Assembly: GCA_026417415.1 (NCBI GenBank) | Contig: JAOADG010000025.1 | Span: 1 to 36,674 of the forward strand | Origin: a bacterium | Lineage (GTDB): Bacteria; Electryoneota; JAOADG01 | DNA: 36,674 nt | Reading direction: 5' to 3' | Shown: positions 3,192-17,514 of the stretch, in pieces | How positions within the stretch are numbered: position 1 is the stretch's first letter | How the letters are laid out: every line of letters starts with the position of its first letter | The notes under the pieces: generated by a model | The model's input: only the letters and a program-made list of their open reading frames with translations | Database searches by the model: none | What the model was told of the DNA's origin: nothing | Translations under genes and position numbers: made by a program

Positions 3192-3420
3192 TTTGACTCC
3201 TTAAAAAAATAGTAAAAAAGAAAAGCGCTAATCTAATTGTAAGAAAAGGTATTTTCAACAATGCAAAAGAAAATGGTACGAAAGAAAAAATTAAATGATG
3301 TAAATACTGCTTTTGAAATTTTAATAAATTTCATACCTTACAATAGATAGATCTTCGTGTAAACGAAACGAAATCAGATGTAACTTTTCCTTAATCAACC
3401 CTTAAATGAAGGAGATTTCT

Positions 3421-5475
3421 ATGAAATTGAAGACGTGGTTGCTTCTATCTTTGAATACTTTGTTGGTGCTTTCACTGTATGTGGGTGCCAGCGCTTATCC
3501 AAGAGCAGTGCTGTTGGAAGAGTTTACTTCTACTACCTGAGGACCTTGTGCGGCAGCCCATGCGTGGCTTGACCCTCTCCTTGCGGCGCAAGGACCTCAA
3601 AATTTTCCAGCAATAATGTATCATATGAATTGGCCTTCGCCGGGAAATGATCCGTGGTATGCAGCCAATCCGACCGATAACAATGCACGACGAACCTACT
3701 ACTCGGTGAATGCAACCCCTACCCATATTGTAGATGGAGCTTCAGCCAGTGGTCAATCCGGTGTCACTACACGTTACAACTCACGACGCGTGGTCGCTTC
3801 GCCGGTATGGTTATCCATAACGTCACGTATGAACCCATCAGGAACTGGTATTGATGTGACGGTGAAAGCCGTTGCAGAACAAGCCATAAGCGGCAACTAC
3901 CGATTGCGAATCGCACAAGTGGAGATCCACGAAACCTGGACTACACCAGCACCTAATGGACAAACCTCGTTCCATTTTCCGATGGTTCAGTTTGCTCCAA
4001 ATGCGAACGGTTTTGCATTCACTCATAGCGGTTCTACTTCGGATACGTTAACTTTTAATGCAACCTTTCCGCTACGAACCACAGGACCACAACCCTACAC
4101 AGTAGATAATTGTGCATTTGTAGCGTTTGTACAAAATGAATCAACCAGAGAAATCGTTCAAGCCAAATACGAACGCTTCCCATTAGATTTTCCTAACTTG
4201 GTTTATCAGACGCACACTGCTACTGATGTTACAGGCAATATGGATGGTAGAATTGATCCCGGTGAAAATGGTGCGATACGGGTAACCATTCGTAATCTGC
4301 AGTACTTTGAAACTGCAACCAATGTAGTAGGAACTTTGCGTACTGCAGTTGCAGGTATTTCTATGATTGATAGCACTGCAAACTTTGGTAACATTCCACA
4401 AAACACCTCTGCAAACAACAATGCGGATCCATTTATCATTCAAGTTGCACCCAATACACCGGTGCAATGGGCAAACTTTACCTTGGTAGCAGTGACCGAT
4501 AGTGGACATTCATTTCAGTTACCCTTTCAAGTGCGTATCGGTCGTCCACCGTTGTTAATTGTTCAATCGGATTCTACTCTTGACTTCAAGAATTTCTACA
4601 TTTCTGCTTTGGATTCACTTGGATTGGAGTACGATTGGTGGGATGCGGATGTAGATTTTCTGACGCACGCAGAATTTCAACGATACCAAAAAGCCATTTG
4701 GTTTACTGGAATGAAAACGGTGGATGTGTTTACTGAATGGGATAAGATTCAGATCACCAACTTCATCAACGCAGGAAAAGACATTATCCTAAGTAGTCAA
4801 AACGGATTGGAAGACGCATTGCAGACCAATGTGGCGTTTGTTGAAAATGTATTGCGTGCAAACATGGTGATGCCGGATATTTCAAACTATGTAATGAATG
4901 GTGTTGCCGGTGATCCGTATTTTGATCAATTAACCGTACGCACAGCAGGTGCAGGTGGAGCTGGAAATTGCGATAATCCAACCGTAGTGACACCGCGATC
5001 CAACAGCACGGGAATGTTACGTTACAACAACCGTACCGACTTTGGTGGTGTGTACTACGAAAACGGAACGTCACGAGTGGTATTCCTTGCATTTCCACTG
5101 GAAGCGGTAAGTGGAGCTTCCAATTCAACTTCCAGAACCACATTTTTCAGTCGTTTGTTCCAATACATTGATGGCGTAACATCCACACCAGAGGCACCAT
5201 CCGTCAATATGCCGAACCAATTTCAAATTCATTCGGTTTACCCGAATCCATTTAATCATTCTACTACTGTATCTCTAACTCTTCCAAAAACAAGTACCAT
5301 TGTTAGTGTGGTGTATGATGTCAATGGACGAGAAGTGTATTCCAATGTGAGGACGTTTCCTGCTGGCAATCATAGGTACACGCTTGACCTCTCAAAGGAA
5401 GCAGGTGGCGTTTACTTCTTAAAAGTTTCCCAAGGAAACGAACATCGTTGGATGAAATTGGTCTTTCTGAAATAA
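3421..5475 (+). CDS. candidate selenoprotein: secreted thioredoxin-like (Omp28-type) protein with T9SS sorting domain, in-frame TGA at codon 40
   Basis: A 684-residue reading frame if the TGA at 3538-3540 is read as selenocysteine. Residues 1-25 are a signal peptide ending ASA. Residues 26 to about 110 are thioredoxin-like: VLLEEFTSTT, then TGA (U40), then GPC (Cys43), giving UGPC where relatives have CGPC; then MYHMNWPSPGNDPWY and NATPTHIVDG with a cis-Pro at residue 100. A beta-rich middle (DGRIDPGENG near 280) and a region starting LLIVQSDSTLDF (about 380-540, perhaps a glutamine-amidotransferase-like fold) follow. Residues 605-684 are a T9SS type A sorting domain (YPNPFNHSTT). AAGGAGA lies 6 bases before the ATG at 3421. 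The next in-frame ATG (3616) has no SD and would lose the signal peptide and active site. The alternative is a recent nonsense mutation. Confidence 0.75.
3541..3596 (+). promoter_or_regulatory. candidate bacterial SECIS-like RNA structure just after the TGA
   Basis: The 60 bases after the TGA are 65% GC (39 of 60), against 50% in the 60 before and 38% in the next 60. A small hairpin pairs 3558-3560 (CCA) with 3565-3567 (TGG), continues with AG (3555-3556) to CT (3568-3569) across a bulged C, and exposes a TGCG loop (3561-3564) with G in second place, about 20 bases from the TGA. Bacterial SECIS loops usually have a G in the first two positions and lie about 16-37 bases from the UGA. An outer stem pairs 3541-3551 with 3586-3596 (10 of 11 positions, one G-T). 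A rival local hairpin is CCTTGC/GCAAGG (3579-3593). Pairing was done by eye. Confidence 0.5.
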
Positions 5476-5934: not shown

Positions 5935-6330
5935 ATGGAGAAGAAAGCACCTGCAAAAAAAGCACCAGCAAAGAAGAAAGCAGCAGTTAAAAAAGCTGCA
6001 CCCAAAAAGGTAGCGGCAAAGAAACCAGCAGCAAAGAAAACAACGGCGAAAAAAGCAGCACCAAAGAAAGTTGCTAAGAAGCCCGTGAAGAAAGCTGTAG
6101 CAAAGAAAACCACTGCAAAGAAAACGGTAAAGAAAGCCGCACCGAAGAAAGCAGCAGCAAAGAAGACCACCGCAAAGAAAGCAGTTAAAAAAACCACTGC
6201 CAAGAAACCAGCAGTTAAAGCAACAACTGCGAAAAAAGCACCAGCAAAGAAAACTGCTGTAAAGAAAGCTGCTCCAAAGAAAGCAGAACCGAAACCACCA
6301 GAAGTTAAGCCAACAGAACCGGCTATGTAA
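5935..6330 (+). CDS. histone-H1-like Lys/Ala-rich DNA-binding protein
   Basis: A 131-residue protein composed almost wholly of Lys, Ala, Pro, Thr and Val in degenerate repeats such as [15 protein letters not shown] and VKKA, ending in a Pro/Glu tail. This composition matches the C-terminal tail of eukaryotic histone H1 and bacterial H1-like proteins (Hc1/Hc2, AlgP types), which bind and compact DNA non-specifically. No folded domain is visible. AGGAG lies 7 bases before the ATG, and a strong terminator follows at 6361, so the gene is probably transcribed alone from the promoter at 5707. Its repeats make it prone to slippage and length change. The nucleoid role is inferred from composition. 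Confidence 0.8.
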
Positions 6331-9914: not shown

Positions 9915-9943
9915 TTGAAATTTCTTACTACCTTTTGTGTACT
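9915..9943 (+). promoter_or_regulatory. possible promoter of the giant subtilase
   Basis: TTGAAA (9915-9920), 17 bases, TGTACT (9938-9943). The -10 match is only 4 of 6. If used, transcription starts near 9950, downstream of the GTG at 9937, which supports the ATG at 9979 as the start. Confidence 0.35.
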
Positions 9944-9978
9944 TGTTCACATACCATTTTTACTTTTCGGAGTTTCCA

Positions 9979-12900
9979 ATGTGTGCACCTATAGTGTCAG
10001 ATCGTTTGACTTGTAAAGTCAGATTCTTATTTCTTTGGCTAATGCTTATCCTGCTTGGTTTTTCTACCCCATCTGCCTTTGCACAAGTGGAGTTTTATTC
10101 GCAGGATCGTGTCTGGCTGATGTTAAACGACAGTTTTTGGCAGACCGCCATCAAAGAAAAGGATGGCAGCATTCGCTATCCCACAGGTGATGCTGTGCTG
10201 GATCGCGTGATGCAGCAAGTATCTGCAAATCGTTTGGAGCCGATGTTTACCCATGATCCAATTTCCTTAAAGAATCCTACGTTTTATGAAAACCGATTGC
10301 ATCTTCATTACAAAATTCTATGGAACTATCCCCAACAAAAATTTGATCCTTATCAATTGGTTTCACAACTAAAAAGCAGTGCAGCAGTGAATGAAACCGA
10401 TGTCATTTATCTTAAACATACTACACTTACTCCGAACGATTGGGGATTGAGTGGCCGCAATATGTGGTTTTTGGATTCGATAAAAGCCCGTTCGGCTTGG
10501 GATAACCAACAAGGCAATTCCAGTATTTTAGCCGTAACCATTGATACAGGCGTGGAATACAACCACGAAGATCTATATCCTAACATACGCACCAATCCTC
10601 TGGAAGATGTCAACGGGGATGGACGTTTTACCTCTGCCGACAATAATGGCAATGATGCAGATGGCAACGGTTTTGTAGATGATGTGATCGGATGGGATTT
10701 TGTAAGCCACAGTTACACGGAAATACCGGGAGCCAGTGCTGCAACAGGTGAAGATTACGGACCACGAGACAACACACCCTACGATGTACATGGGCATGGT
10801 ACACACGTAATGGGCTCTATTGCTGCACGGACCAACAACAGTATTGGTGTTCCGGCTGCTAGTTTTAATGTGCAAACATTGGCGATACGTGCAGGGTTTG
10901 CTTATATCTATTCAGGTCAATTGCGAGGTTCTGGTTACGATGACGACTTTATCGCAGCCATCCAGTACGCAGTGAATCGTGGTGCACGCATCATTAGCAT
11001 CAGTTTTGGTGGTGGAGGAAGCAGTTCAGCGTATCAAGATGCAGTAAACTATGCACGTTCCAACAACTGTCTGGTGTTTGCTGCCGCGGGAAATGATAAT
11101 TCAAGTACAGTGAGTTACCCTGCTGGCTATAACGGTGTATTGGCTATTGCAGCGTTAACTACAGGCAATGTAAAAGCATCTTTTTCTAACTATGGTTCAT
11201 GGGTGGATCTGTCTGCACCGGGTACCAGCATTTGGTCCACCATGGTGGTCAATACCTATAACCCCAACCCATATGTAGCATGGGATGGTACTTCAATGGC
11301 AACACCGACCGCTGCATCGGTGGGTGCGTTGGTTTTATCTGGGAATCCGTCACTTACCGATGATCAGTTAGAGACCATTCTTTTAACTACTGCGACCAGT
11401 GTCAATGCACAAAATCCAAGTTATGTGAATCAGTTAGGAAGTGGGATAGTGAATGCTCAAGCCGCGGTGGCGACTTTGCGTCCTGTAAATGTTGTCTATC
11501 CCAATGGTGGTGAAACCTTAACCATCAATTCCGGTGTAACAATCCAGTGGACCTACCAACCGTCGGTAACCAATGTGCGCATTGAATTGAATCGCAACTA
11601 TCCTTCGGGTACGTGGGAAACCATAGTTGCATCTACTCCAAGTAACGGTAGTTATTCATGGAACGTGACGGCACCCACGACCACCAATGCTAGAATACGC
11701 ATTGTGAATACCGCCAATTCATCTCAAGCCGACACTTCCAATGCCAATTTCTCCATTATCAATGCACCCACTTCGTTAGCCGAATTTTTTGAAGGGACTT
11801 TTCCCAATACAGGTTGGAGCAACTTAGGACGGTGGGAACAGTATCTCTATAGCAGCAATCGTTCAGTGCGGTTAAATTATTATAGTTTAAGCGATTTAGG
11901 GTCAACGGACACATTACTTGCACCCATTCTTAATCTTGCTGGTCAAACGGGTTTACAATTACGGTTTAGTACCAGTTATGTGAATTATAGTTCCTATAAT
12001 GACAGTTTGTTTGTGTTAGCACGGATTGGCAACGGTGCATGGACTTCACTCTGGCGTCAAGGTGGAGCCCAATTGACCAATAGACCCTCGGGGCGTGAAC
12101 CGACGGCGTGGCGAAGCAATCAAATTGTTATTCCCAGCCAATTTTTCGTATCAGGAGTACAATTTGCTTTTGTAGGATACAATGGTTATGGGGATAACCT
12201 TTATCTTGACTCTGTCCAGACGATTTTCACACCATCCACGATAACAGTACAAACCCCCAATGGTGGTGAGAATTGGGGGATTGGAACCACACAAAATATC
12301 ACTTGGACCTCTACTAATATAACGGGAAATGTTGCGATTGAACTTAACCGTAACTTTCCAAGTAGTAACTGGGAGACCTTGTATAGTAGTACAGCCAACG
12401 ATGGAGTTGAACCGTGGAACGTTACCGGTCCGATCACAACCACAGCACGTATTCGGATACGCACTGTAAGTATGTCACCAGAAATCAGTGATACCTCTAA
12501 TGCAAGTTTTTCAATATTAAACTTACCCACCACCTTAGCCGAGTACTTTGAAGGTACTTTTCCCAATACAGGTTGGAACAACTTGGGTCGCTGGGCACAA
12601 TATCTATACAACAATAACCGTTCTGCTCGTTTGAACTACTATAGTTTAACCAACATCGGATCTACGGATACGTTACTTACCCCTGTGCTTAACCTATTCA
12701 ACCAATCATCACTTCAATTGATTTTTAGCACCAGTTATGTAAACTATAGTTCCTATAATGATAGTTTATTTGTTTTGGCGCGTGTTGGCAACGGTGCTTG
12801 GACATCACTGTGGCGTCAAGGTGGAGCACAATTAACCAATAGACCTTCTGGACGTGAACCTACAGCATGGCGTAGAAATCAGTTCAACATTCCGAGTCAA

Positions 12901-15900
12901 TTCTTAGTGTCGGGGGTTCAATTTGCATTTGTAGGTTACAACGGCTATGGGGATAATTTGTATCTGGATTCAGTATTGACCGCTCAAACAATTCCAGAAA
13001 TCACCGTACTTTCACCAAATGGTGGCGAGATTTGGCCCATCAATACCAATCAAACCATCACTTGGAGCTCACAGAATATCGTTGGCAATGTGGCGATTGA
13101 TCTCAATAGAAATTATCCCACTGGCACATGGGAAACCATCATCCCCAATACTGCCAATGACGGTTCAGAAACGTGGAATGTAACGGAACCGATTACCGCA
13201 TTTGCAAGAATTCGTGTGCGCACGATTGCAATGTCGCCCGAAGTGAGTGACCTTTCCAATAATCACTTTACCATCACTACAGCACCTCAGATTTTTAACT
13301 CCACGTCAGTTCCTGTGGCAATCAATGATAACTCTACTGCTTATGCCTACATCAATATCCCCAATAACTTAATCATCACCGATGTAAACTGTTTAATTAA
13401 TATCAATCATACCTTTGTTGGTGATTTGGAAATACGGCTCATTTCACCACAAAACACCAATGTGTTGTTGGTTGATAATCGTGGTGGAAGTGGTGACAAT
13501 TTTACACAAACCTTGTTTGATGATGAAGCCAGTACTCCTATTACCAGTGGAAGCCCGCCGTTTACAGGGAGTTTCAGACCGGAAGGACTACTTTCTTCAT
13601 TTGATGGACAAAATGCTCAAGGACAATGGGCATTGATGGTGATGGATCAAGCAACAGCTGATGTGGGTACCATCACTCAATTCACCTTACAAATTGTAGG
13701 AGTGACTACTGTTTCAGGTACAGTCACTGCCAGTGTTGGAGGAGCCCCGATAGATTCGGTCTATATTACTTTAGGAATCTTCCAAACCTACTCCGATGTG
13801 AATGGATTCTATACTTTGAATGTACCAGCAGGTCAATTTACCATCAATGCGACAAAATTGGGGTGGGTGCCATATTCTGCGCCAATTAACGCAACCAGCA
13901 GTATCGTTCACAATATCACTTTATCTTCGCCTTTTGCAAACGTTGAACCCCCTACAGCAACTACAACCATTGAGGTACCTGATACAGCAGTGTTTACTGT
14001 GGTGTTGACCAATATAGGGGATGCGGTAATGAATTGGACGGCGGAATTGTTTCCGTCCCAAGGTCCAGGTCATACTGAGGTGCGATATTTCCCAACTGAA
14101 AATCATGGAACACTTGCCAAAGTGCTGGGACCCGTCGGTTCAATTGGTGCAGTGACCGCCAGCGCGACGGAACTCCATTCCTATCAACTGCCCCTATCTC
14201 AATCACCAACCGATGAAATAGATACAGGGAGTTGGGATTATACACCCGCAAGCGGTACCTTACCACCCGCAGGTCAACAAGTGTTTACCATACGATATAT
14301 CCCGCAATTGGGGGATCCGACCAGCACGCAAACAGCCAACTTCAAAATAAACTGGCGTGCTGACAATCAATTTACCATCGTGCCTCTGACTGTTAATGTC
14401 AACGCCACCCAGCAACCTGGTACGATTGTCTTTCCTAACGGAGGTGAAACCGTATTGATTAGCATACCAACGAATATCCAATGGACCCCGAACCCGAATG
14501 TTACCCATGTATCCATTGAATTGAATCGCAATTATCCCAGTGGACCATGGGAAACCATCGCACTGGAAGTAGCCAATAATGGAACCTATCCGTGGTCACC
14601 TACACCTCCTGAAGTCAATACTGCCAGAATCCGAATAACGGATGTCAACAACCCGTACCGTACGGTGGTATCTGCAGGGAATTTTACCATTGATACACCT
14701 GAAATCACTTCTATTTTAAGACCCAATGGTGGGGAACGGTTTTACATTGGTGTTCCAGATACGATTCGCTGGACCGCTAATTATATGGGCTTACCTGTAA
14801 GAATAGATTTAAACCGTAATTATCCCGGGGGAGCTTGGACCACACTGGTTAGTAGTGCCCCTAATACGGGAAGTTATCGCTGGACACCCACAGGTCCAGG
14901 AACAACCAACGCACGGGTACGTGTACGCTATGCTAGTGGTGTTGGGATTCAAAAGATTGCAGATGGCAATTTTACCATTTTACAAGCACAACTTAATTTA
15001 ACCACACACAATACTGTGGATACTTTGTATGTGGGTGATTGGGATACCCTGCGGTGGAACTTTACCGAGATCACGGGAAACGTTCGTTTGTTTGCCAATT
15101 GGAATTATCCCAATGGGATTTGGGAAGAAATTGGTACAGGTATCCCTATCACACAAGGTCAATTCCCGTACCTTGTATCTACTGCTGGGCAGGCACGTTT
15201 TGTGGTGCAATCCGTGCTTTATCCGATGATTCGTGATACCACCGATGCCACCACTGTGATTTTACCTCCACGATTCTTACAAATTGTAACCCCTAACGGT
15301 GGAGAAGTGGTCTATCGCAATCAACCGATGACCATTTCTTGGAATGCCAATTATCATTCTACGATTTCGTTGGGCTTTTCACCAGCAGGTCAACAAGTTG
15401 ATTCGTTGATATTAATCCCCGGTGCGGATAATCTTCCTTCAACGGTTGGAATGAATCATTTTGTTTGGATTCCTAACCGTACAACCCCAAACGGAATGAT
15501 TTATATTGTTGATCATTTTAGGCCGATTGAAGATTGGTCGGATGCTCCGTTTGAAGTAACCGACCCGATATTAACCGTTCAGTATCCCAATGGTGGAGAA
15601 AATCTTTATGTAGGTGTTCCTGTAGCGGTTCAAGTGTATAGCAGTATCCCCATGAATATTCATCTTGGATTTAGTGCTGCTGGTCCCAACGTTGACTCTG
15701 TTGCCTATATTTACCAGAATTATTCTATCGGAGCAGGAACCACTACATTAAACTGGACACCTTCCAGACCAACTACACAAGGAAGGATATACATCACTTC
15801 ACCGCAATATGGTGTTTTTGATTGGTCAAATGGAAACTTTAACGTAATTCAAAATACCATTCAAGTGTTGCGGCCCAACGGTGGCGAGACCTTTGTGGTG

Positions 15901-17514
15901 AATCGTCCTGATACCATTCGTTGGATTGCAAACTTTACAGGATTGGTGCAGATCCAACTGGCAAGGTATGGATTGTCCAACCCATCTAGAGAGTTAATTA
16001 CCAATAGTGCAGTAGCCCAACAAGGGTATTTTGTTTGGAATCCCACAGGTCCGGCGTCCAACAACTGTTACATCATTATTACCGATCCACTTACAGCCGT
16101 TTCCGATCAATCGGATAATAGTTTTAACATTGTCACCAGCAGTTTAACGTTGTTAAAACCCGTTGGTGGTGAAGTATTTTTAATAGGTGTACCGGATACA
16201 ATCCGATGGTCTGCAGCAAATGTGATGGGCAATGCTTCCATTTCAATACAACGGATACCTTTTGCTACGTGGATTAGTTTAGGTTCTGTCAATGCAACGT
16301 TATCAAATGAATTCCTTTGGGTACCCACTGGACCACCGACCAACACTGCTCGTGTACGGGTTTCTTCATTGGAAACTCAGGCCGTGGCAGATTCTAGCCC
16401 AGCATTTTTCTCAATACAATACTTCCAATGGGGAACATCCCCATTTCGCATTAAGAATACGAACACAAATCCACAAGCATCATGGCAGCCGCCTATTCCG
16501 TACGATCCCCAGACCAACGGGTTACCGCCGCTTTCCATTGTGTTCCCATCTCAAACGGGTACTCGAACCAATCCAGATTCAGTGACTGTCTCCTATCGTC
16601 CTTTTGGGCCTGCAGACGATGAAGTTTTGCCTTCCGAGACCATCAATCGTATATGGACCATAACACCCAGTTCCCAGAACTTCCAAGGTGCTACCCTTAC
16701 TTTACGGTTTACCTCTTCGGATTTACCCTCAACCATTCCTGATCCTATCAATGCTAATCCATCGTTGGGTGGGATTATGTCCGAAGATGGCGGGACGACG
16801 TGGATCTTTGTCCCCGGTGGGTCAGTAGATAATGATACCGCTGCCAATACCTACAAGATGACCATTCACAACGTGAATCAATTCTCGGATTGGGCAATTA
16901 CAAATCATGGGATAAGACCAAGATTTTCCACTTACAATACCTCAGATACTCTATACCTTGGTGATACCGCAACTTTCCGTTGGTCCAGAGACATTCTGGG
17001 AGGAAGTGTAACCATTCAAATCAATCGTAATTATCCTTTAGGAACATGGGAAACCATTCTTTCCAATACGGATAACGATTCCATTGAGAATTGGGTGGTT
17101 AGCGGTTCTGAAGCAGTTAATGTTCGCTTCCGTATCTATTCCAATTGGTTTAATGCGGATGGTGATACCACCGATGCCAATGTGGTGATTATGTATAAAG
17201 TTCCTAAAGCACCTAACAATTTTGTAGTAGTCCGTAACGGAAGTTCAATGAATTTGACTTGGTCTAAAGTGGATTCCAGTGTTTATGGTGAACGAATGAA
17301 CATTGATGGATATAAATTGTACTATATGGACATCTTCTCTTATTCAGGGATATGGACGTTACTAACGACCATTACCGATGCTGCGGATACTACGCATACC
17401 GACGTCAATATCTTAAATACCAATACAACGCGATATTATATGATCAAAGCGTATGTAGGGGGTACCACTTCGTCATCCAGTTACCCAATCTACATAAGGA
17501 GACGTGAAGAATAG
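9979..17514 (+). CDS. giant secreted subtilisin-like (S8) protease with multi-domain Ig-like stalk
   Basis: 2511 residues from the ATG at 9979, chosen because GGAG lies 6 bases upstream; an in-frame GTG at 9937 has none. A signal peptide ends near AFAQ (residue 36). The S8 domain (about 160-500) has Asp189 in TIDTGVE, His273 in GHGTHV and Ser439 in GTSMATP. Then come a PNGGE Ig-like repeat (about 503), two tandem [MAM/choice-of-anchor-J-like + PNGGE] modules (about 595-1100), a P-proprotein-convertase-like domain (about 1103-1240), a carboxypeptidase-regulatory-like domain (1243-1313), PNGGE repeats (1483 to about 2150), a unique domain, one degenerate repeat (about 2313) and a fibronectin-III-like end (2408-2511). 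No T9SS sorting domain is seen at the C-terminus. The role is probably extracellular protein breakdown or adhesion. Confidence 0.93.
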   Translation: MCAPIVSDRLTCKVRFLFLWLMLILLGFSTPSAFAQVEFYSQDRVWLMLNDSFWQTAIKEKDGSIRYPTGDAVLDRVMQQVSANRLEPMFTHDPISLKNPTFYENRLHLHYKILWNYPQQKFDPYQLVSQLKSSAAVNETDVIYLKHTTLTPNDWGLSGRNMWFLDSIKARSAWDNQQGNSSILAVTIDTGVEYNHEDLYPNIRTNPLEDVNGDGRFTSADNNGNDADGNGFVDDVIGWDFVSHSYTEIPGASAATGEDYGPRDNTPYDVHGHGTHVMGSIAARTNNSIGVPAASFNVQTLAIRAGFAYIYSGQLRGSGYDDDFIAAIQYAVNRGARIISISFGGGGSSSAYQDAVNYARSNNCLVFAAAGNDNSSTVSYPAGYNGVLAIAALTTGNVKASFSNYGSWVDLSAPGTSIWSTMVVNTYNPNPYVAWDGTSMATPTAASVGALVLSGNPSLTDDQLETILLTTATSVNAQNPSYVNQLGSGIVNAQAAVATLRPVNVVYPNGGETLTINSGVTIQWTYQPSVTNVRIELNRNYPSGTWETIVASTPSNGSYSWNVTAPTTTNARIRIVNTANSSQADTSNANFSIINAPTSLAEFFEGTFPNTGWSNLGRWEQYLYSSNRSVRLNYYSLSDLGSTDTLLAPILNLAGQTGLQLRFSTSYVNYSSYNDSLFVLARIGNGAWTSLWRQGGAQLTNRPSGREPTAWRSNQIVIPSQFFVSGVQFAFVGYNGYGDNLYLDSVQTIFTPSTITVQTPNGGENWGIGTTQNITWTSTNITGNVAIELNRNFPSSNWETLYSSTANDGVEPWNVTGPITTTARIRIRTVSMSPEISDTSNASFSILNLPTTLAEYFEGTFPNTGWNNLGRWAQYLYNNNRSARLNYYSLTNIGSTDTLLTPVLNLFNQSSLQLIFSTSYVNYSSYNDSLFVLARVGNGAWTSLWRQGGAQLTNRPSGREPTAWRRNQFNIPSQFLVSGVQFAFVGYNGYGDNLYLDSVLTAQTIPEITVLSPNGGEIWPINTNQTITWSSQNIVGNVAIDLNRNYPTGTWETIIPNTANDGSETWNVTEPITAFARIRVRTIAMSPEVSDLSNNHFTITTAPQIFNSTSVPVAINDNSTAYAYINIPNNLIITDVNCLININHTFVGDLEIRLISPQNTNVLLVDNRGGSGDNFTQTLFDDEASTPITSGSPPFTGSFRPEGLLSSFDGQNAQGQWALMVMDQATADVGTITQFTLQIVGVTTVSGTVTASVGGAPIDSVYITLGIFQTYSDVNGFYTLNVPAGQFTINATKLGWVPYSAPINATSSIVHNITLSSPFANVEPPTATTTIEVPDTAVFTVVLTNIGDAVMNWTAELFPSQGPGHTEVRYFPTENHGTLAKVLGPVGSIGAVTASATELHSYQLPLSQSPTDEIDTGSWDYTPASGTLPPAGQQVFTIRYIPQLGDPTSTQTANFKINWRADNQFTIVPLTVNVNATQQPGTIVFPNGGETVLISIPTNIQWTPNPNVTHVSIELNRNYPSGPWETIALEVANNGTYPWSPTPPEVNTARIRITDVNNPYRTVVSAGNFTIDTPEITSILRPNGGERFYIGVPDTIRWTANYMGLPVRIDLNRNYPGGAWTTLVSSAPNTGSYRWTPTGPGTTNARVRVRYASGVGIQKIADGNFTILQAQLNLTTHNTVDTLYVGDWDTLRWNFTEITGNVRLFANWNYPNGIWEEIGTGIPITQGQFPYLVSTAGQARFVVQSVLYPMIRDTTDATTVILPPRFLQIVTPNGGEVVYRNQPMTISWNANYHSTISLGFSPAGQQVDSLILIPGADNLPSTVGMNHFVWIPNRTTPNGMIYIVDHFRPIEDWSDAPFEVTDPILTVQYPNGGENLYVGVPVAVQVYSSIPMNIHLGFSAAGPNVDSVAYIYQNYSIGAGTTTLNWTPSRPTTQGRIYITSPQYGVFDWSNGNFNVIQNTIQVLRPNGGETFVVNRPDTIRWIANFTGLVQIQLARYGLSNPSRELITNSAVAQQGYFVWNPTGPASNNCYIIITDPLTAVSDQSDNSFNIVTSSLTLLKPVGGEVFLIGVPDTIRWSAANVMGNASISIQRIPFATWISLGSVNATLSNEFLWVPTGPPTNTARVRVSSLETQAVADSSPAFFSIQYFQWGTSPFRIKNTNTNPQASWQPPIPYDPQTNGLPPLSIVFPSQTGTRTNPDSVTVSYRPFGPADDEVLPSETINRIWTITPSSQNFQGATLTLRFTSSDLPSTIPDPINANPSLGGIMSEDGGTTWIFVPGGSVDNDTAANTYKMTIHNVNQFSDWAITNHGIRPRFSTYNTSDTLYLGDTATFRWSRDILGGSVTIQINRNYPLGTWETILSNTDNDSIENWVVSGSEAVNVRFRIYSNWFNADGDTTDANVVIMYKVPKAPNNFVVVRNGSSMNLTWSKVDSSVYGERMNIDGYKLYYMDIFSYSGIWTLLTTITDAADTTHTDVNILNTNTTRYYMIKAYVGGTTSSSSYPIYIRRREE
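11761..13278 (+). repeat. two tandem 759-bp modules inside the subtilase gene
   Basis: Copy 1 is 11761-12519 and copy 2 is 12520-13278, each exactly 253 codons: one MAM/choice-of-anchor-J-like domain plus one PNGGE Ig-like domain. For example GTFPNTGW occurs at the same offset in both. The protein is nearly identical in stretches (YNDSLFVLAR, GNGAWTSLWRQGG, LTNRPSGREPTAWR) while many third codon positions differ. Confidence 0.85.

Follow-up and report, generated by a model that had tools for sequence, protein, structure and literature searches.

A predicted exported thioredoxin-like selenoprotein in Candidatus Electryoneota and a candidate long-spacer SECIS hairpin in its clade

Analysis of a 36,674-nt stretch of DNA (the window) from a genome of the phylum Candidatus Electryoneota uncovered a gene at 3421–5475 that, judging from comparison with its homologues, very probably encodes a selenoprotein. 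The same TGA codon recurs in relatives from several phyla, a recurrence that marks a real protein family as opposed to a broken gene. In Electryoneota and related phyla, we think it fairly likely that this family of thioredoxin-like selenocysteine (Sec) proteins is widespread, largely unannotated, and exported by the type IX secretion system (T9SS), with a part of it using a SelB hairpin located 43–44 nt past the UGA. The finding is already known in part, as this kind of Omp28-related selenoprotein is represented by the NCBIfam family NF045500. What appears to be new is a separate Sec clade, with predicted T9SS export in most Sec members and a candidate long-spacer SECIS.

Results

An in-frame TGA within a long open reading frame

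The frame 3421–5475 translates to 684 aa on the forward strand and contains a single internal stop, a TGA at codon 40. This codon sits within VLLEEFTSTT-U-GPC, as an earlier sequence-only reading of this DNA had described, and is followed by 644 open codons (estimated there at about 645) ending in the TAA at 5473–5475. The ribosome binding site of that reading corresponds to an AAGGAG directly 5′ of the ATG at 3421, and the first 25 residues resemble a Sec signal peptide by inspection, again in agreement with it. Conventional ORF prediction for the gene does begin at 3616, as had been anticipated for standard annotation. Because seven other ORFs in the window terminate in TGA, where at least five had been claimed, TGA is a normal stop here. 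The proposed features of the gene are as follows.

3411..3416, + strand: Shine-Dalgarno-like AAGGAG, 5′ of the ATG at 3421 (from sequence)
3421..5475, + strand: predicted selenoprotein gene encoding 684 aa, one of them Sec (U40), and comprising a signal peptide, a Trx/Omp28-like domain, a middle module, and a T9SS tail
3421..3495, + strand: putative Sec signal peptide (inspection only), with probable cleavage after ...VGASA; helix 2–23 in the full-length model
3538..3540, + strand: UGA at the first UxxC position, predicted to be read as Sec (U40) (160-site comparison)
3496..4182, + strand: thioredoxin-fold domain of the Omp28/HBP35 type, containing U40-G-P-C43 and, in the NATPTHIVDG loop, the invariant P100 (conservation, AF2, Foldseek)
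4183..5220, + strand: middle module (beta-sandwich plus Rossmann-like part) that, along with the tail, also occurs in two S8 subtilases encoded by this genome
5236..5463, + strand: T9SS type A C-terminal sorting domain (PF18962, residues 606–681; TIGR04183, residues 606–676)

An Rfam scan of the window gave no match at gathering thresholds.

Selenocysteine and cysteine exchange at codon 40 among homologues

Homologues were gathered from 147 relatives, all 39 genomes of the phylum, and named genomes, most of the compared sequences being MAGs. A contig scan with the single window protein as query returned no relative; alignment A2 as query succeeded. Across 160 distinct sites, the codon-40 column contains 83 TGC, 39 TGT, 34 TGA, and 4 other codons (three Ser, one Asp), with TAA or TAG at none of the 160. 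Since the column is otherwise Cys in 122 of 126 homologues and 33 homologues besides the window carry TGA, the placement of the TGA is more than chance and agrees with the proposal that it replaces the first Cys of the CxxC of thioredoxin-like proteins. The TGA sites derive from Electryoneota and from records assigned to Gemmatimonadota, Calditrichota, and Marinimicrobia (Fidelibacterota). On a quick domain tree built with codon 40 left out, 14 Sec/Cys switches are needed, at least seven of which are forced by well-supported branches.

These comparisons bear directly on whether the gene is simply broken. If the TGA were a nonsense mutation or a sequencing error, any product would start at the ATG at 3616 and lack the signal peptide and active site, and 3616–5475 is indeed what a standard gene caller would give. 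We consider this very improbable. The remaining frame is open in the homologues that share the TGA, the upstream signal peptide and VLLEEFTSTT are conserved among homologues, and upstream of codon 40 the comparison with the homologue L069 shows seven synonymous versus three replacement changes. The exchange of Sec and Cys is clean, without decay elsewhere; a pseudogene is ruled out by 34 TGA sites against zero TAA/TAG, and a base-calling error by the recurrence of TGA in many genomes of several phyla.

Selenocysteine machinery of the genome

The source genome (2.2 Mb, 40 contigs) encodes all four components of the Sec machinery for which a search had been suggested: selA (contig C38, 447 bits), selB (contig C22, 386 bits), tRNA-Sec or selC (contig C26; Rfam 66.9 bits; called SeC by ARAGORN, anticodon tca), and selD (contig C33, 336 bits). 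With these genes present, none of the outcomes listed in the sequence-only reading as refuting it was observed. The selD gene (L021, G000:C33:39292-40218) itself contains one in-frame TGA, within DCAG-U-ASKVGP at the usual SelD Sec position, which points independently to UGA being decoded as Sec in this organism. A canonical SECIS-like hairpin with the apex GC-GGA-GC lies 20 nt after the selD UGA.

A different decoding, in which a suppressor tRNA or a changed genetic code inserts another amino acid at UGA, would equally leave the frame open once the TGA is read through, but it is the least probable of the readings considered here. Homologues have Cys and never Trp in the codon-40 column, and the tRNA-Sec, SelA, SelB, and Sec-type SelD are all present. 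A code change, also judged unlikely in the sequence-only reading, is ruled out by the TGA stops elsewhere in the window.

The distribution of the Sec trait across the phylum agrees with a selenoprotein. Both selA and selB score over the cut-off in each of the 13 Electryoneota genomes that carry TGA copies, and the four genomes without selA and selB (G002, G028, G029, G030) contain Cys copies only. This agreement is consistent but weak as a test, because nearly all Electryoneota have the Sec trait.

A candidate SECIS hairpin 44 nt after the UGA

For the selenoprotein gene, the following hairpin is proposed as the SECIS.

3578..3594, + strand: hairpin UCCUUGC-GGC-GCAAGGA (proposed SECIS), whose loop G, at 3585, lies 44 nt past the UGA (covariation, 13 sequences)

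In the window, it consists of a 7-bp stem and the 3-nt loop GGC, with a predicted energy of −8.3 kcal/mol. A scan for the best hairpin with a G in the first two loop bases, located 10–50 nt after the codon at ≤ −7.5 kcal/mol, was positive for 22 of 33 TGA sites, compared with 5 of 122 Cys sites and, from the same genes, 26 of 896 background sites (Fisher 4e-14, an optimistic p value given that the rows are related). The main classes of loop distance in TGA hairpins, which were set after inspecting the data, are 17, about 22, and 43–44 nt after the UGA, and the last of these comprises the window and 12 relatives.

In the alignment of these 13 long-spacer sequences, 87.9% of stem cells are paired, and the covariation score of 0.553 exceeds the shuffle mean of 0.230 (0/500) and falls to ≤0.198 when the stem is slid. 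The loop G (alignment column 48) falls on the third base of a codon. It is present in 13 of 13 sequences, in Leu, Gln, Val, Glu, Ala, and Thr codons alike, versus 22 of 122 Cys genes. In addition, the GC-GGC-GC apex in the window matches the GC-GGA-GC apex of selD. On its own, the window hairpin does not exceed in strength those from synonymous shuffling of the gene (p about 0.32), such that the SECIS is supported through the comparison of relatives and is not individually significant in the window sequence.

The published model of the bacterial SECIS (bSECIS) gives a UGA-to-loop spacing of 16–37 nt (PMC13188914). Under the canonical bSECIS criteria (stem of 4–16 bp, loop of 3–9 nt, G in the first two loop bases, MFE ≤ −7.5), the stem, loop, G, and energy of the window hairpin are all within range, but its spacing of 44 nt falls outside 16–37 nt (PMC13188914).

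The full 69-nt RNA favours an alternative fold (−28.4 kcal/mol), a longer stem that consumes the 3′ arm of the hairpin and would need to open before the hairpin could form. When the first 13 nt are removed, as if inside the ribosome, the +44 hairpin becomes the minimum. The gene may be a selenoprotein whose SECIS is a longer, UGA-containing stem or a weaker first hairpin near +20, a reading that we regard as possible but unlikely. The −28.4 kcal/mol fold pairs UGAGG/CCUCA and CCUUGUGC/GCGCAAGG (z −2.8), and the first hairpin (columns 18–31) shows some covariation. By inspection, however, the long UGA-containing stem is not seen kept in relatives, RNAalifold on the 13 relatives recovers only the +44 hairpin, and the covariation of the +44 hairpin, in addition to its invariant third-position G, is far better than that of the first hairpin. 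A two-hairpin SECIS was also considered and rejected, as the first hairpin is weakly supported and a +2 shift scores equally. We conclude that the +44 hairpin is probably the SECIS.

Fold and architecture of the protein

The N-terminal domain is modelled by AF2 with a pLDDT of 95.5. A strand at residues 32–36 and a helix at 41–57, with the UxxC/CxxC at the start of the first Trx-core helix and a Pro loop, are consistent with a thioredoxin fold. The U/C40 site, His68, and Pro100 are among the invariant positions, Pro100 lying within the Pro loop typical of thioredoxin folds. A phmmer search against PDB sequences gave no match for the window protein, while the best Foldseek match of the domain is HBP35 (5y1a, E 2e-12), followed by Omp28.

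HBP35 of Porphyromonas gingivalis (PDB 5y1a) is the closest fold, with a TM score of 0.77 by query at 14% sequence identity. Recombinant HBP35 has thioredoxin activity dependent on both active-site Cys (PMC2907840), and HBP35 is exported by the T9SS through its CTD (PMC3120885). Therefore, this domain type and the T9SS route are already known together with Cys. Unlike HBP35, which has two Cys, the window protein is predicted to contain Sec plus Cys, and its middle module, about 350 residues long, is additional to what HBP35 has.

The outer-membrane lipoprotein Omp28 is related at the level of both fold (PDB 2r2c) and sequence, with a Pfam match (PF11551) at window-protein residues 91–247. This match falls below the gathering score (23.5 vs 34.9 bits), and 25 of 30 complete Sec members match Omp28 at E ≤ 1e-3. 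In contrast to Omp28, the window protein has a T9SS tail, and its signal peptide is without a lipobox by inspection.

Predicted export by the type IX secretion system

The C-terminal tail scores above the cut-offs of both sorting-domain models (PF18962, 43.3 vs 27 bits; TIGR04183, 42.6 vs 23 bits), as expected from the sorting domain noted previously. The genome also encodes the T9SS translocon protein SprA (775 bits) and holds dozens of CTD-like matches. A tail over the cut-off together with SprA in the genome identifies the protein as a predicted T9SS type A cargo. The sequence-only reading called an exported Sec enzyme unusual; Sec and T9SS signals do occur together in this gene, but it is not a one-off, as the T9SS tail model is matched by 27 of 30 complete Sec members.

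A selenoprotein that acts in the periplasm or is bound to the membrane, rather than exported to the surface by the T9SS, would be easier to supply with reductant, and Omp28-type relatives include outer-membrane lipoproteins (NF033782). We nevertheless hold this localization to be improbable given the CTD, the presence of SprA, the many CTD-like matches in the genome, and the tail shared by most Sec members; moreover, HBP35, of the same fold, leaves by the T9SS (PMC3120885).

Relation to the Omp28-related selenoprotein family

The NCBIfam model NF045500, “Omp28-related selenoprotein”, corresponds to hypothetical protein GOS_C, which a 2008 study identified as Trx-like with a UxxC (PMC2398784) and which is included in the 2026 catalogue (PMC13188914). 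Its Trx-like domain with UxxC aligns with residues 23–250 of the window protein, across U40, and 28 of 30 Sec members match the model at E ≤ 1e-3. On this alignment, NF045500 is a distant relative of the window protein, homologous across U40. Assignment to NF045500 is ruled out on score, as the window protein reaches 25.3 bits against a curated cut-off of 200, a score attained in none of the phylum's genomes. The window clade further differs in having its own long-spacer SECIS candidate.

The papers cited here for NF045500 do not mention T9SS export (PMC2398784, PMC13188914), and the only paper retrieved in which selenocysteine and type IX secretion both appear draws no connection between them. 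A T9SS tail is likewise present in a Marinimicrobia Sec member (L218) that scores 185.8 bits to NF045500, so the known family may include exported proteins as well.

Predicted mechanism and significance

Under the proposed mechanism, SelB and Sec-tRNA(Sec) would decode the UGA at 3538–3540, guided by the hairpin at 3578–3594, and readthrough would yield a 684-residue precursor instead of a 39-residue peptide. The precursor would leave the cytoplasm via the Sec signal peptide and the cell via the type IX system, with the product presumably on the surface or released. Sec40 is the putative attacking residue of the UxxC, with Cys43 as the resolving residue. Outside the outer membrane, the domain probably acts on disulfides, by reduction or exchange, or on peroxides as a reductase. 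We favour, with some reserve, such an exported disulfide or peroxide role for the window protein.

Most selenocysteine enzymes described so far are cytoplasmic or periplasmic. A family of thioredoxin-like Sec proteins crossing the outer membrane raises two questions, namely the source of their reductant on that side and the benefit that selenium brings, and the long-spacer hairpin offers a test of the working distance of SelB from the UGA. If these predictions are true, current catalogues understate both how much SECIS geometry can vary and how wide the range of extracellular selenoenzymes is. The existing selenoprotein model (NF045500) overlooks the whole clade, and standard annotation begins such genes at the inner ATG, with loss of the signal peptide and active site.

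Variant homologues and other window features

Several homologous loci were noted in addition. In a Gemmatimonadota MAG, a Sec copy adjoins a Cys copy (L064, at 1564 and about 3645, and L105), which makes a natural pair for comparing Sec with Cys. Both tandem copies L096 and L097 (G095) have an active-site TGA, and a simple scan found no obvious strong hairpin in either. In L099 (G032), the active site is U-G-P-N-C, with the resolving Cys moved by one residue, and a strong long-spacer hairpin is present. In L083 (G139:C58), the reported match contains an in-frame TAG in addition to the TGA, and the frame, which stops early, may be truncated.

Elsewhere in the window, 5935–6330 encodes a small Lys/Ala-rich protein with a histone H1-like HC2 match just above the Pfam cut-off. 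The region 9937–17514, for which the ORF list gives a GTG start, encodes a 2525-aa S8 subtilase with a proprotein-convertase P-domain; this large protein is probably a secreted protease.
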